Of a DNA stretch of 64,000 nt, positions 34,105-39,527 are shown piece after piece. Each line of letters starts with the position of its first letter. Position 1 is the stretch's first letter. The notes beneath the pieces are model-generated. The model ran no database searches. It saw only the letters and a list, made by a program, of their open reading frames with translations, and was not told the DNA's origin. This DNA comes from Brevibacillus laterosporus DSM 25 (GTDB lineage: Bacteria; Bacillota; Bacilli; Brevibacillales; Brevibacillaceae), in assembly GCF_002706795.1 (NCBI RefSeq), contig NZ_CP017705.1, positions 620,001-684,000 of the forward strand, written 5' to 3'. The translations under genes were made by a program, and so were the position numbers.

Positions 34105-35931
34105 CTACTCAAAACGTCTCGTTTTGTTATAACGCTCACGATCTGACTTGTTCAAGTATTTCTTACGCAGTCGAACGGAATGAGGTGTTACTTCACACAA
34201 TTCATCATCGTTCAAGTACTCAAGTGCTTCTTCCAACGTTAGGATACGAGGAGTTTTCATTTTAACTGTCTCATCCTTGTTAGCAGAGCGAACGTTGGTA
34301 GCATGCTTTTCTTTGATTACATTAACAGTCAGGTCGTTATCACGGCTATGCTCTCCAACAATCATACCCTCATACACATCAGTACCAGGATGGATAAACA
34401 TAGTTCCACGATCTTCTACTGACATCAAACCATATGTGCTAGAGGTACCTGTATCATTTGAGATCAATACACCTGCGCGGCGTCCACCTACGATACCAGG
34501 TACAACCGGGCGATAGCTATCAAAGGAGTGATTCAGGATACCGTATCCACGTGTAATGGTCATGAATTCTGTACGATAACCAATCAATCCGCGAGAAGGA
34601 ATTAGGAATTCTAAACGAACTTGTCCAAACCCATTGTTAATCATGTTCACCATTTCAGCTTTACGTGCTCCCAATGTTTCCATAACAGGACCCGTGTGCT
34701 CTTCTGGAACGTCGATGATAAGACGCTCAGCTGGCTCCATTTTCACACCATCAATTTCACGAATGATTACTTCTGGTTTAGAAACACCTAGCTCGTAGCC
34801 TTCACGACGCATGTTTTCAACCAAAATAGACAAGTGCAACTCACCACGTCCAGAAACAACGAATGCGTCTGCTGAATCAGATTCATCAACACGTAACGAT
34901 ACGTCTGTTTCTAGCTCGGCCATTAAGCGATCCCGTAGTTTACGAGAAGTAACGTGCTTTCCTTCTTTACCAGCAAATGGACTGTTGTTAACCAAGAAAG
35001 TCATTTGTAGTGTAGGTTCATCAATTTTCAAGAGTGGCAATGGATCTGGTTTATCAACGTTGCAAACCGTTTCCCCTACGTTAATATCTTCTAGACCGGC
35101 TACAGCAATAATATCACCGGCACGGGCTGTTTTTTGTTCAACGCGGTTCAAGCCTTGGAAACCAAATAGCTTTTGCACACGCATTCTCTTAATGCTACCA
35201 TCACGTTTTACAACGGATACTTGGTCATTTAGATTGATAACACCACGATAAACGCGACCAATACCAATTCGACCTAGGAAGTCGTTATAATCAAGCATCG
35301 TTACTTGGAATTGTAACGGCTCCTCTTCATTTGCTTCTGGAGCTGGAATGCCTTCAATAATTGTATCAAATAATGGTTTTAAGTCTTCTGATAAGTTATC
35401 CGGCTCCTTACCAGCAATTCCTTGAATTCCAGAAGCATATACGATTGGGAAGTCCAATTGCTCTTCTGTTGCATCTAAATCAATAAATAGGTCATAAACC
35501 TCATTGATTACTTCTTGTGGACGAGCATTATCACGGTCGATCTTGTTCACAACAACGATCGGCGTTACATTTGCTTCTAATGCTTTGCGTAAAACGAAAC
35601 GAGTTTGCGGCATGCAACCTTCAAAAGCATCAACAATCAACAAAACACCATCTACCATGCTCATGATACGTTCTACTTCACCACCGAAATCGGCGTGACC
35701 AGGCGTATCCAGAATGTTAATGGTGTAATCCATATATTTTACAGATGTGGTTTTCGCTAAGATTGTAATTCCACGCTCACGTTCCAGATCGTTGGAATCC
35801 ATCATACGCTCAGCCACATGTTGGTTGCTACGGAATGTACCGGACTGAATTAGAAGTTTGTCAACCAGTGTCGTTTTCCCGTGGTCAACGTGGGCAATAA
35901 TTGCGATATTACGAATATCAAGGCGTTTCAT
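34105..35931 (-). CDS. typA: Translational GTPase TypA/BipA
   Basis: A 608-residue ribosome-binding GTPase needed for growth at low temperature and stress. All GTPase motifs are present: [15 protein letters not shown] (G1), the switch region [13 protein letters not shown] (G3) and [10 protein letters not shown] (G4), followed by the EF-G-like domains and the TypA C-terminal domain ([15 protein letters not shown]). Start ATG 35931 with AGGAGG. Homologue of ylaG; genes ylaH, ylaJ and ylaK lie elsewhere in this window, so the yla block is partly conserved but rearranged. Confidence 0.97.
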
Positions 35932-36125
35932 AAGTTCCTCCTCGTCTTTGCATACACTCCATAATAACAGGTAATAGGTTCATTCACAATCTATAAAATG
36001 TGGAGAAATACCCGATTCCTGTCGAGAACTTTCGCTATTTCCTCCGCCATGCTTTGCCAATTCTTGACTGCACTCACATGTTAGACTGGAATAAATGACA
36101 CCAATGCACGGAAGGAGGCAATGAT

Positions 36126-37439
36126 ATGCCCCACGACACTGATCCATTTGTCATAACGCCTACCTTATCATCCATTTGTTCAAGTTTATTACGGCTTGCC
36201 GATCAATTTGGTCTACTGCTGATCATTCACATCACGGAATGCCAGTCCCAGACCTTCTCTTGGAGCAACGGACTTGCTGATTCTGGGCAATCTTGCATAC
36301 ATAGCGTTTTACACATCACCCTCTGGTCAACAAAAAAAGAGATGGGACAAGCCATCACCTTACACCTAACCGAATCTGCTGCGATTACTGCCTTTCATCA
36401 AGCGCGTAAAAACCTTACCTTACATGACAATAGGTGGAGAGTCTTTCAACAGTTTTGCCAACACGAAAAACAGCTTCCACCACCATCCACTCTGGAGCAA
36501 TTGGGTGAATTTCGTGATTGGCATTTCCTTATCAGTAAAATGGGCTTGGAGCACAAACGGTTTTTTCAAGAAAAAATACCATATAAATTGCGTTCTCAAA
36601 TCAAAATACAACAAGAGAAACAATGGCTCTGCCGTAGTGACGGTAGCTTTTATCAATCCCAATTTTGGAGGGTAACACTAGAAGCTACATCTCAGTTTAA
36701 CCCTCACACTAGGTTGATCCAATATCAAGATGGCGCTACCTTTTTTGAACATTGGCGTCCCGCTATGAACGAGCTCATAACAAATTTGTATAAACAAATG
36801 GACAATCGACTCTCCACGTCCCGTGAAAATCATGGACATCATCAGCAAATTGTAACTCCATCCTCAATGGAAGTCTCTAGTCCATTCTGGGTTGATACTG
36901 AGATCTTTGCAGGACTTTTGCGACTTTATTTGCAACAGCCTTCTTTTAGACGACAATGGTTACCAGCAACATCACGATTACGACTTACTCATTTGGAAGG
37001 TCATAGTTGTTATCAACCCTTTCACTACATTGGCACCTTGTATCCCTCTGTCACATTACTAGGAGAATCTGTTATTGATATGAACGAACCAGAGGACTTA
37101 ACAGGAGCTCATCTCCTTTATTCCTTACCAACGTTGCTATCCGGGGATGATTTCCCTTCCCCACTTCTTCACATTGATGAAAAAGTTCCTTCCCTTATAT
37201 TGAGCGGTTATCACCATCTATATCACAGCAAACCAATGGACAGTTATTTTTTATTAGTACAAGACTGCTATAAGCTTCCCAGTTTCCAACAGATACCAAC
37301 TGGATGGATTCATGGTCGAATTAGTAAGATTTTTTCTTCCATCATTTGTGGATGGGGTGTGAATCGTACAGTTACCGAGCCACATTCCACACAATTTTGT
37401 GTTACAGCTCCCTCTTATCTGTTACTTGAGCTAGGATAA
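36126..37439 (+). CDS. Divergent TldD-like protein without the zinc-binding motif
   Basis: A 437-residue cytosolic protein with no signal peptide. I read it as a very divergent TldD/PmbA-type protein. An N-terminal domain has FSWSNGLADSG then ITLHLTESAAITAFHQARKN (the glycine-rich family domain pattern), the middle has the CRSDGSFYQS turn, and the end (QFCVTAPSYLLLELG) resembles the family C-terminus. The HExxxH site of active TldD is absent: where it should lie the sequence is GLLRLYLQQPSF. The composition is rich in His, Gln and Ser. ATG 36126 follows GGAGG. The next gene looks like its TldE/PmbA partner. The assignment rests on pattern reading only. Confidence 0.45.
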   Translation: MPHDTDPFVITPTLSSICSSLLRLADQFGLLLIIHITECQSQTFSWSNGLADSGQSCIHSVLHITLWSTKKEMGQAITLHLTESAAITAFHQARKNLTLHDNRWRVFQQFCQHEKQLPPPSTLEQLGEFRDWHFLISKMGLEHKRFFQEKIPYKLRSQIKIQQEKQWLCRSDGSFYQSQFWRVTLEATSQFNPHTRLIQYQDGATFFEHWRPAMNELITNLYKQMDNRLSTSRENHGHHQQIVTPSSMEVSSPFWVDTEIFAGLLRLYLQQPSFRRQWLPATSRLRLTHLEGHSCYQPFHYIGTLYPSVTLLGESVIDMNEPEDLTGAHLLYSLPTLLSGDDFPSPLLHIDEKVPSLILSGYHHLYHSKPMDSYFLLVQDCYKLPSFQQIPTGWIHGRISKIFSSIICGWGVNRTVTEPHSTQFCVTAPSYLLLELG

Positions 37440-37541
37440 AAATGCACATTTTTTACCTACTCCATCTTACATTTTTTTGATCGTGAATGAAGTGGATTTT
37501 CCGTTACATTTGTTTAAAGATTCAGTAAAGGAGGGCTTTTC

Positions 37542-38732
37542 TTGAACAACTCCACATTCCCGCATGATGAAACTGCTACAGATGTATTGAGTAATTTCCA
37601 AACTAAACTACTAGCTGCTTTAGCCGCTCATTCCAGAGACTTAGCTGCTTTCCACTTTTATTTGGAAGAAGAACACTTACTTTCCCCTTTCGTTCACAAA
37701 CAGTTGCAATATCAGGGAGAGCTTCGCTTGATTTGGCAAGATGGAAGCACTTCCATACATGCTATCACTCCAACTTTATTACAGCAGCCAGAGTTGCCGA
37801 TAACAAAATGGGCTCCTTACCGTGTTTTTCGGTCTGACAATCGATACCTGATTGCTCGCGATATGATTTATGAATCCCCTATTATATATGACCACTCTTT
37901 GGCAGAACATGTAATAAACAATTCATTACCCGATCCACCAAACGGCTTTACAGCAACTATCTCTATGTATAAACGTACCTATGCTGATGCAAGGCATGTC
38001 CAAATTTCCGAGCAAGAAACCCGTTTATACTTCCAGCCTTCATTGGGCAACCCTTTTTCCTACGAATTCCGAAGACTACCTACCAAGGCCGCTTGGGAAT
38101 ATATGCAAACGGAAGCACACTGGTTTCATACCTTTAGCCTTTCGCATATGTCATTTTATACTCCAACAAAGCGTACCATTTGTTTACTAAGTCCAAGTGC
38201 CTTACAACGTTTGTTACTTCCTTGTTTTTTATCACAAGATTTTAAAATAGAGTATAAGAAGAAGTCAGCTCCTTCGCCCAGACTAAAGGCTTGGTATGAT
38301 CCGAGGCGTCAGTCTGGCGTAGGTACCCATCGTTTTGATCGCAGAGGTAGTCCCCTCTTTCGCTTTTCCCTAGATGAACCAAACTCCCTTCATCTGCTCC
38401 CTGACTTGCCAGAGCATGAGATAGCGCTTGGTTTAGTAGCACAAGCAAAGAAACGGGTATACTTTCGTTCTTGGTTACAGAATCAGCCAGAAGTGTTGTT
38501 TATCCCTAAAGTAGACATTCCTAATGATTATCATCCATTACAGACCGAGCAACTTTTTTGTCCACAAGCCACTCTTTTTCGTTATGGTAAACCGGTCCTG
38601 CAAACTACTCTGCTCTTTCCCGTTTCGTGTTCTACACTATTTTCATCCAAAAATCTAATTTCCGTTTATAAAGCCCTTTGGGATGCTCCTGGACTGGCCT
38701 TTCCTGCTCTTTCCTTGGTGTTCACTTCCTAA
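37542..38732 (+). CDS. Divergent PmbA/TldE-like protein
   Basis: A 396-residue protein, likely the partner of the gene before it. The N-terminal part contains MYKRTYADARHVQISEQETRLYF, like the family's N-terminal ADVRVE strand, then a stretch KRTICLLSPSALQRLLLPCF resembling the PVVLSPEAA segment, YDPRRQSGVGTHRFDRRGSP in the position of the DDEGV region, and a C-terminal beta segment (ISVYKALWDAPGLAFPALSL). It starts with TTG 37542 after AAAGGAGGG. The gap to the preceding gene is 102 bases. If correct, it would form a heterodimer with the TldD-like neighbour, as in known TldD/E complexes; a peptidase function is not supported by the residues. Confidence 0.45.
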   Translation: MNNSTFPHDETATDVLSNFQTKLLAALAAHSRDLAAFHFYLEEEHLLSPFVHKQLQYQGELRLIWQDGSTSIHAITPTLLQQPELPITKWAPYRVFRSDNRYLIARDMIYESPIIYDHSLAEHVINNSLPDPPNGFTATISMYKRTYADARHVQISEQETRLYFQPSLGNPFSYEFRRLPTKAAWEYMQTEAHWFHTFSLSHMSFYTPTKRTICLLSPSALQRLLLPCFLSQDFKIEYKKKSAPSPRLKAWYDPRRQSGVGTHRFDRRGSPLFRFSLDEPNSLHLLPDLPEHEIALGLVAQAKKRVYFRSWLQNQPEVLFIPKVDIPNDYHPLQTEQLFCPQATLFRYGKPVLQTTLLFPVSCSTLFSSKNLISVYKALWDAPGLAFPALSLVFTS

Positions 38733-38783
38733 GTAATTCGGTCGCCTTCTGTTAACACTACCTAATGGAGGTGGCCAACAAAC

Positions 38784-39527
38784 ATGAAAAAAATCCTGTA
38801 TACAGCTTCATGTCTTTTACTGTTAACAGCGGTTACTGCTTGCGGAACTGCTCCAAAGCAAGGTACTCAAACCCAATCTTACAGAACGAGTGGCTATGGA
38901 ACAATAGGTACCGGTAACCACAATGGTTATGGAACATTTGGTACTGGTAACTACCACGGCTATGGAACATTTGGTACTGGTAACTACAATGGTTATGGAA
39001 CATTTGGTACTGGTAATTACAATGGCTATGGAGGAACTTACCCTTATACGGGCTTTTACCAATCCTCAGACACTCGTATGCGTGGTTACGCAAACAATGG
39101 CCAACGTTACCATGGTATGTCTGCAAACCATGCTCATAATCGTGAGCTTGCCGATCGTATTACAGCATCTGCTAAGAAGGTTAAGGGCGTCCAATCAGCG
39201 ACTACCGTCGTCCATGGAAATGAAGCTGTTGTTGGTATTGAGTTGAAAGATCATAAAAATTCATCTCATCGCCGTACGATTGAACGAGAGGTAAACGATG
39301 TAGTTGCTAAAGCAGCACCTCATCATCGCGTTTATGTCACATCTGACTCCAAGATGTTATCGCGTGTAAAAAGCATCGATGGCAACTATCGCTCGAACTT
39401 TTCTAACACTAGCACTAACATGACGACCGGTCCAAATACCGTAACGGGCAATTTATCTAACGTCGGTTCAGATTTTGGTGCGTTAGTTACTGATCTTGGA
39501 CGTACAATAACTGCTCCATTCCGTTAA
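38784..39527 (+). CDS. YhcN/YlaJ-family lipoprotein with glycine-rich 11-residue repeats
   Basis: A 247-residue sporulation-type lipoprotein with lipobox VTAC (cysteine 20). Between the lipobox and the domain lies a tandem repeat of four GYGTFGTGNYN units (residues 37-80). Residues about 115-205 form the YhcN/YlaJ domain (ELADRITASAKKVKGVQSATTVV, then VVGIELKD and VNDVVAKAAPHHRVYVTSD). It resembles ylaJ at 24.6 kb in domain but not in linker. Spore inner-membrane or coat location is expected. ATG 38784 has GGAGGTGG. Confidence 0.85.
   Translation: MKKILYTASCLLLLTAVTACGTAPKQGTQTQSYRTSGYGTIGTGNHNGYGTFGTGNYHGYGTFGTGNYNGYGTFGTGNYNGYGGTYPYTGFYQSSDTRMRGYANNGQRYHGMSANHAHNRELADRITASAKKVKGVQSATTVVHGNEAVVGIELKDHKNSSHRRTIEREVNDVVAKAAPHHRVYVTSDSKMLSRVKSIDGNYRSNFSNTSTNMTTGPNTVTGNLSNVGSDFGALVTDLGRTITAPFR
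38892..39023 (+). repeat. Four 33-base tandem repeats in a lipoprotein gene
   Basis: Four near-identical 33-base units encode GYGTFGTGNYN-type 11-residue repeats. The last three share most bases, so unit number can change by slippage or recombination. Confidence 0.9.

Follow-up and report, generated by a model that had tools for sequence, protein, structure and literature searches.

Two adjacent genes of Brevibacillus laterosporus DSM 25, referred to here as A and B, apparently encode a non-catalytic, lineage-restricted variant of the known TldD/TldE fold. In our preferred reading, which we regard as fairly probable, the two proteins form a shell of the TldE type that has no catalytic activity and serves to bind peptides or proteins. 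The window (the whole stretch of 64,000 nucleotides that was analysed) carries A at 36126..37439 (forward strand, 437 residues, ATG start) and B at 37542..38732 (forward strand, 396 residues, TTG start), each with a GGAGG-type ribosome-binding site just 5' of its start. A first-pass annotation had described two adjacent ORFs of 437 and 396 residues at 36126-38732, adjoining typA and a spore lipoprotein. The ORF coordinates match this description exactly, and both neighbours were confirmed. The gene at 34105..35931 (reverse strand), which we take from its sequence to be typA, lies upstream and is divergent from A, and the gene 3' of B (38784..39527, forward strand) codes for a ylaJ/yhcN-type sporulation lipoprotein (PF09580, E 1.2e-17). 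A gene downstream of the pair is, judging from its sequence, presumably speD-like. The lipoprotein has N-terminal repeats rich in Gly, Tyr and Asn (TFGTGNYNGYG units), and its length varies among close relatives (247, 257 and 266 residues).

According to the ORF tables, the same order is found in all ten genomes that carry A: divergent typA, which occupies the same position in 10/10, then A, then B if present, and then the ylaJ-type gene. In the eight genomes measured, the distance between A and B ranges from an overlap to 103 nt, the overlap of genome G036 (-44) being inexact because its B start is uncertain, and B ends 49-60 nt before ylaJ. A and B are probably co-transcribed. The pair does not consist of chance ORFs, as frame, order and place are kept in 10 genomes among A homologues that are 18-77% identical to the A protein of the window. 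One of the regions read, in G032 (L101:1433-3916), is unlike the others in having extra ORFs of 454 and 314 residues between the ylaJ-type and speD-like genes.

The window proteins belong to a family missed by the sequence libraries tried. Searches of Pfam, NCBIfam, PHROGs, PADLOC and PDB sequences named no family for A or B, and single-sequence searches gave no TldD/PmbA match over the curated cut-offs of Pfam or NCBIfam. Weak lines to lipo_CT253 (0.045), pAgo (0.018) and Mig-14 (0.035) were judged to be chance. At the level of the family, PF19289 weakly matches five of eight B members (best 4.6e-4), and the B protein of G002 reached 21.0 bits in a genome search with a cut-off of 22. In the other direction, the B profile, which did not include the internally deleted B of G003 (149 aa) and to which G001 contributes no B, found the canonical TldE of G053 at 4.0e-5, a hit that coincides with a PF19289 match.

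Profile-profile comparison was made without the structure models. A scored 94.5% against TldE, 12.5% against TldD and 95.4% against both together, and the corresponding values for B were 46.9%, 20.9% and 67.3%. With larger sets (38 TldE-type and 8 TldD sequences, divided solely by the presence of HE..GH), A scored 91.4% against TldE and 13.2% against TldD, and B 82.9% and 47.8%. Among the controls, none of 240 column shuffles exceeded 1.6%, and none of the six runs with reversed profiles exceeded 0.4%. As a test of similarity to TldD/TldE, the profile comparison was therefore positive for both proteins, with A at 91-95% and B at 47-83% against TldE or mixed sets. Compared directly with each other, the A and B profiles stayed below 1%; hence, A and B are not recent duplicates.

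The structure models point in the same direction. Single-chain AlphaFold models built from the A and B family rows alone (alignments of 10 and 8 rows, respectively) had mean pLDDT values of 80.4 for A and 78.5 for B and a pTM of 0.75 each, with A divided into an N-terminal domain (about 10-240) and a C-terminal domain (about 244-437). In Foldseek searches of the PDB, each model retrieved 16 chains at E<=0.001, and all of them were TldD, TldE or PmbA. The best hits were an E. coli TldD chain for A (9.5e-19) and Thermococcus kodakarensis TldE for B (6.2e-13); TM-scores were moderate (0.39-0.62) and rmsd values ran from 6.8 to 9.6. Full-length alignment of the predicted models with VIA-align placed A residues 13-437 on 1VL4 with a Z of 20.6 (rmsd 4.3, 369 residues aligned) and B residues 15-393 on the same structure with a Z of 17.6 (rmsd 5.1, 354 aligned). 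Over the TldD, TldE and PmbA chains, Z ranged from 19.3 to 20.6 for A and from 12.0 to 17.6 for B, at sequence identities of only 8-14%. The best chains of any other fold had Z values of only 4.9 (A) and 3.1 (B), none near the TldD/TldE rows, an absence that does not in itself amount to proof. Altogether, the predicted models support a full-length two-domain TldD/TldE fold for both proteins, and the comparison with TldD/PmbA structures thus bore out the proposed fold, with no other family at E<=0.001.

Which of the two subunits A represents is a separate matter. The first-pass annotation had read A as TldD-like and B as PmbA/TldE-like. For B this holds: it is TldE-like by sequence profile and also by model, which lies nearer to TldE (Z 17.6) than to TldD (12.2). 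For A, however, the sequence is far closer to TldE than to TldD (94.5% vs 12.5%), and the model is about equally close to both (Z 19.8 for TldD, 20.6 for TldE). The A-then-B order parallels that of tldD and tldE. A degenerate TldD is therefore a possible description of A, one that the gene order fits, to which the model is neutral and against which the sequence favours TldE. Since both proteins are TldE-like by sequence and TldE has no zinc site, a degenerate TldD origin of A is not proven. If A and B are both of TldE type, nothing has been lost from A, and the pair would simply be without a catalytic partner.

The absence of the zinc motif, as described in the first-pass annotation, was upheld. 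Neither HExxxH nor HExxH occurs anywhere along the length of the 10 A or the 9 B family members, and the canonical TldD of G001, which served as a control, has HEACGH. The reversed motif HxxEH appears once in the A protein of G002 and once in the B protein of G038. When the residues at the HExxxH position were inspected, the A segment aligned with the central HExxxH helix of TldD (36885..36920, forward strand, residues 254-265) reads FWVDTEIFAGLL, where only D257 is invariant and the TldE alignment is approximate. The corresponding B segment (38181..38216, forward strand, residues 214-225) reads CLLSPSALQRLL, and the B proteins of some relatives have LIHHGLGVHL there. The metal ligands of E. 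coli TldD are H262, H267 and C454, none of them conserved in TldE (PMC5810440). As regards the third of these, a Cys near the C terminus, there is no invariant Cys in A or B, but the alignment to TldD is weak in this part (36.8% global). Neither subunit has HExxxH, so the proposed shell cannot work as the metallopeptidase known from TldD/TldE.

The distribution of the pair is narrow. A is found in 10/39 and B in 9/39 genomes of the bacterial family to which the window belongs, spread over four of seven genera. Two close relatives share 75-77% identity with the window A, and the other seven rows share 18-26%. Run over 299 Bacilli genomes, the A profile gave eight matches, all in this family; run over 398 genomes, the B profile gave ten, namely eight in the family, the canonical TldE of G053 and a frame in G082. 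The G082 frame (185 aa, 4.4e-5) was taken as chance. In the other Bacilli families of these same samples (299 genomes for the A profile, 398 for the B profile), the pair was not found. A scan of genome contigs, which used two short peptide patterns and may miss distant relatives, returned three loci, all in Brevibacillus records (B. dissolubilis, B. fulvus and a MAG), and a scan of viral contigs returned no relatives. Among the genomes sampled, the pair thus occurs in a single Brevibacillus family, always between typA and ylaJ.

We also read 20 regions around speD. In sixteen of them, out of 18 that lack A, the pair is missing and the region holds typA, a single lipoprotein-type gene and speD; the lipoprotein-type gene was recognised by a tblastn match to the window YlaJ in 11 of these and judged by eye from an ORF of 192-218 aa in the other 5. 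As for the remaining regions, both genes are present in G032, A stands without B in G001, the interval from typA to speD contains no ORF of 100 aa in G007, and the stretch of G031 gave no typA. On a typA tree of 27 genomes, four of them with a partial gene, A presence is patchy and several branches lack it, with some branch supports as low as 0.10. One fixed site together with many absences suggests one old insertion followed by repeated loss.

Such losses raise the question of whether A and B are the decaying remains of an ancient TldD/TldE peptidase that one lineage after another is losing and that has ceased to matter, a reading which we consider somewhat unlikely. A is absent from 29/39 genomes. 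B was not found in G001, and in G003 (L013:1369-1818) a 741-nt in-frame internal deletion leaves a B of 149 aa next to an A that stays open; B is therefore dispensable in these two genomes. Between the window genome and G004, dN/dS was 0.231 for A, 0.319 for B and 0.196 for ylaJ, with a value of 0.025 for the part of typA compared; typA thus changes far more slowly than either A or B. Between G004 and G003 the values rise to 0.34 for A and 0.475 for B, which fits relaxation. Against decay, the reading frames remain open across lineages that share only 18-26% identity, the window-genome ratios are not near 1, and the invariant residues number 20 in A and 23 in B. These ratios indicate that A and B are fast-evolving yet under purifying selection. 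The first-pass description of the pair as conserved has to be qualified by the fast evolution, the occurrence of A in only a quarter or so of the family (10/39) and the condition of B in G001 and G003.

The neighbouring lipoprotein gene makes a role in sporulation or germination worth considering. Here the pair, perhaps made in the mother cell, would serve sporulation or germination near the YlaJ-type lipoprotein, a proposal that we find unlikely and that would be compatible with a non-catalytic shell. In Bacillus cereus, YlaJ influences SleB-dependent germination (PMC12331253), and the short distance between the end of B and ylaJ, given above for eight genomes, fits such an association. A sigma-E-like pattern (ATA, 18 nt, CATACACT) precedes A at 35930..35958 (forward strand), overlapping the typA start codon and the region upstream of it. 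Before A, the sigma-E-like pattern is present in pair-bearing genomes only, in 7/10 under loose and 4/10 under strict terms, with 0/16 in pairless genomes (G020 gave no typA start for this count). One further sigma-E-like match occurs in G032, where 0.01 was expected.

Several observations weaken the link with sporulation. The CATAC half of the sigma-E-like pattern alone is present in 8/10 pair-bearing and also in 10/16 pairless genomes; considering this and the overlap with the typA start, the site may belong to the typA control region. In addition, the pair-bearing genomes are related to one another, so the contrast does not amount to 26 independent cases. The ylaJ gene has its own sigma-G-like element (TAAGTA to AACACTA; 38730..38760, forward strand), a loose pattern match only, which overlaps the B stop codon. 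Before ylaJ, the strict sigma-G-like pattern was found in 6/8 of the pairless genomes shown and in 0/10 of the pair-bearing ones, and the loose pattern in 7/8 and 6/10, respectively, the weaker element of the pair-bearing genomes lying at the B stop codon or close to it; in the gap between typA and A, a sigma-G pattern was found in 0/10 pair-bearing genomes. Furthermore, the sixteen genomes with typA, a lipoprotein-type gene and speD manage without the pair. An extended -10 pattern before A, which was picked post hoc, is present in 7/10 genomes against 1.67 expected, with three of the seven being close relatives, and this hints at possible vegetative transcription.

A new catalytic site in place of HExxxH, which would make the pair an active enzyme, appears very unlikely when the invariant residues are considered. 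Over 8 lineages, 20 columns of A are invariant (A25, D26, G29, W46, F90, H91, A93, E114, H143, RSDG 170-173, R182, D257, G292, P298, H300, G361 and G409), and 23 columns of B are invariant over 7 lineages, at mean pairwise identities of about 22-31%. H91, E114, H143, D257 and H300 of A would be eligible for chemistry, and some of them stand at positions that are variable in TldE. However, the invariant residues of B include neither His nor Cys, and in the model the invariant His residues of A are distributed over different N-domain helices and the C-domain, so that they may not meet.

D26, H91 and H143 of A fall on N-domain helices of the model, and in the alignment to canonical TldE the positions opposite D26 and H91 are variable. 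In the solved structures, these helices lie on the outer surface of the sheet (PMC5810440). The placement in the model hints that D26, H91 and H143 could mark a new outer binding surface.

Canonical TldD/TldE pairs are rare in this group. The window genome gave no match to PF01523 or PF19289, that is, no recognised canonical TldD or TldE, and within the bacterial family only G001 and G007 (2/39) exceed the PF19289 cut-off. This model is uncommon in the sampled Bacilli (8/61 genomes) and usual in the phylum sample (93/119). In G001 (L141:3844-11600), the canonical pair, with HEACGH, lies near class II aldolase-type and cytochrome oxidase genes, and a lone A without B stands at typA. In G007 (L142:619-9820), the canonical pair, with HEVCGH, is accompanied by two ORFs matching parts of PF04738 (lantibiotic dehydratase) and by an MFS exporter, and the locus looks like a RiPP-type cluster. 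The idea that A and B act as additional TldE-type partners of a true TldD encoded at another place in the genome is hardly credible, since their TldE-like sequences and the coexistence of A with a canonical HExxxH-bearing pair in G001 have to be set against the absence of such a pair from the other nine of the 10 genomes with A, and in the window genome it fails unless a TldD lies beyond the reach of both family models, PF01523 and PF19289.

We therefore return to a non-catalytic TldE-type shell and to how it compares with known systems. With TldE/PmbA proteins of known structure (1VL4, Thermotoga maritima TM0727; 6J6A, T. kodakarensis; 3QTD, Pseudomonas aeruginosa), A and B share the full-length predicted fold and the lack of a zinc site; unlike them, they are only 8-14% identical to these structures, are missed by Pfam and NCBIfam and have no canonical TldD partner found in the genome. 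With the E. coli TldD/TldE heterodimeric metalloprotease (5NJ5, 5NJC, 5NJF), they share the fold of both subunits and an arrangement as adjacent, co-directional genes, whereas E. coli TldD binds metal through the three ligands given above and A and B lack HExxxH. Compared with the canonical pairs of G001 and G007, they belong to the same superfamily and the same bacterial family and are likewise paired genes, the TldD gene being first in the canonical pairs; the canonical pairs differ in having HEACGH or HEVCGH and in lying elsewhere, near cytochrome oxidase genes or with a split lantibiotic dehydratase. According to the description of the E. coli complex, TldD/TldE is a proteolytic chamber in which TldD is the sole catalytic subunit, and TldE-type homodimers are hollow, with no recognisable catalytic site and no activity reported as of that description (PMC5810440). 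Our searches found no literature on TldD and PmbA in Brevibacillus or on TldD as a pseudoenzyme, and among the TldD/TldE matches listed (titles and abstract openings) no such family was named.

In the preferred reading, A and B are divergent members of the TldD/TldE (PmbA) superfamily and fold as TldE-type subunits. These subunits would probably come together in a hollow dimer, either of A with B or of like subunits, presumably devoid of any other catalysis. Such a shell would most likely bind unfolded peptides, or a protein partner through its outer helices, inside some Brevibacillus cells. A more specific version, which we put forward only tentatively and hold to be possible, is that of a pseudo-peptidase peculiar to Brevibacillus. 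It would be a heterodimer of TldE fold that has no zinc chemistry and has been re-used either to hold peptides inside a shell or to regulate by binding proteins, with D26, H91 and H143 of A marking a new interaction surface on the outer N-domain helices and possibly with mother-cell expression during sporulation. As a natural pair under selection in a genome with no recognised zinc subunit, A and B would make it possible to examine whether the TldD/TldE fold can serve a purpose other than proteolysis.
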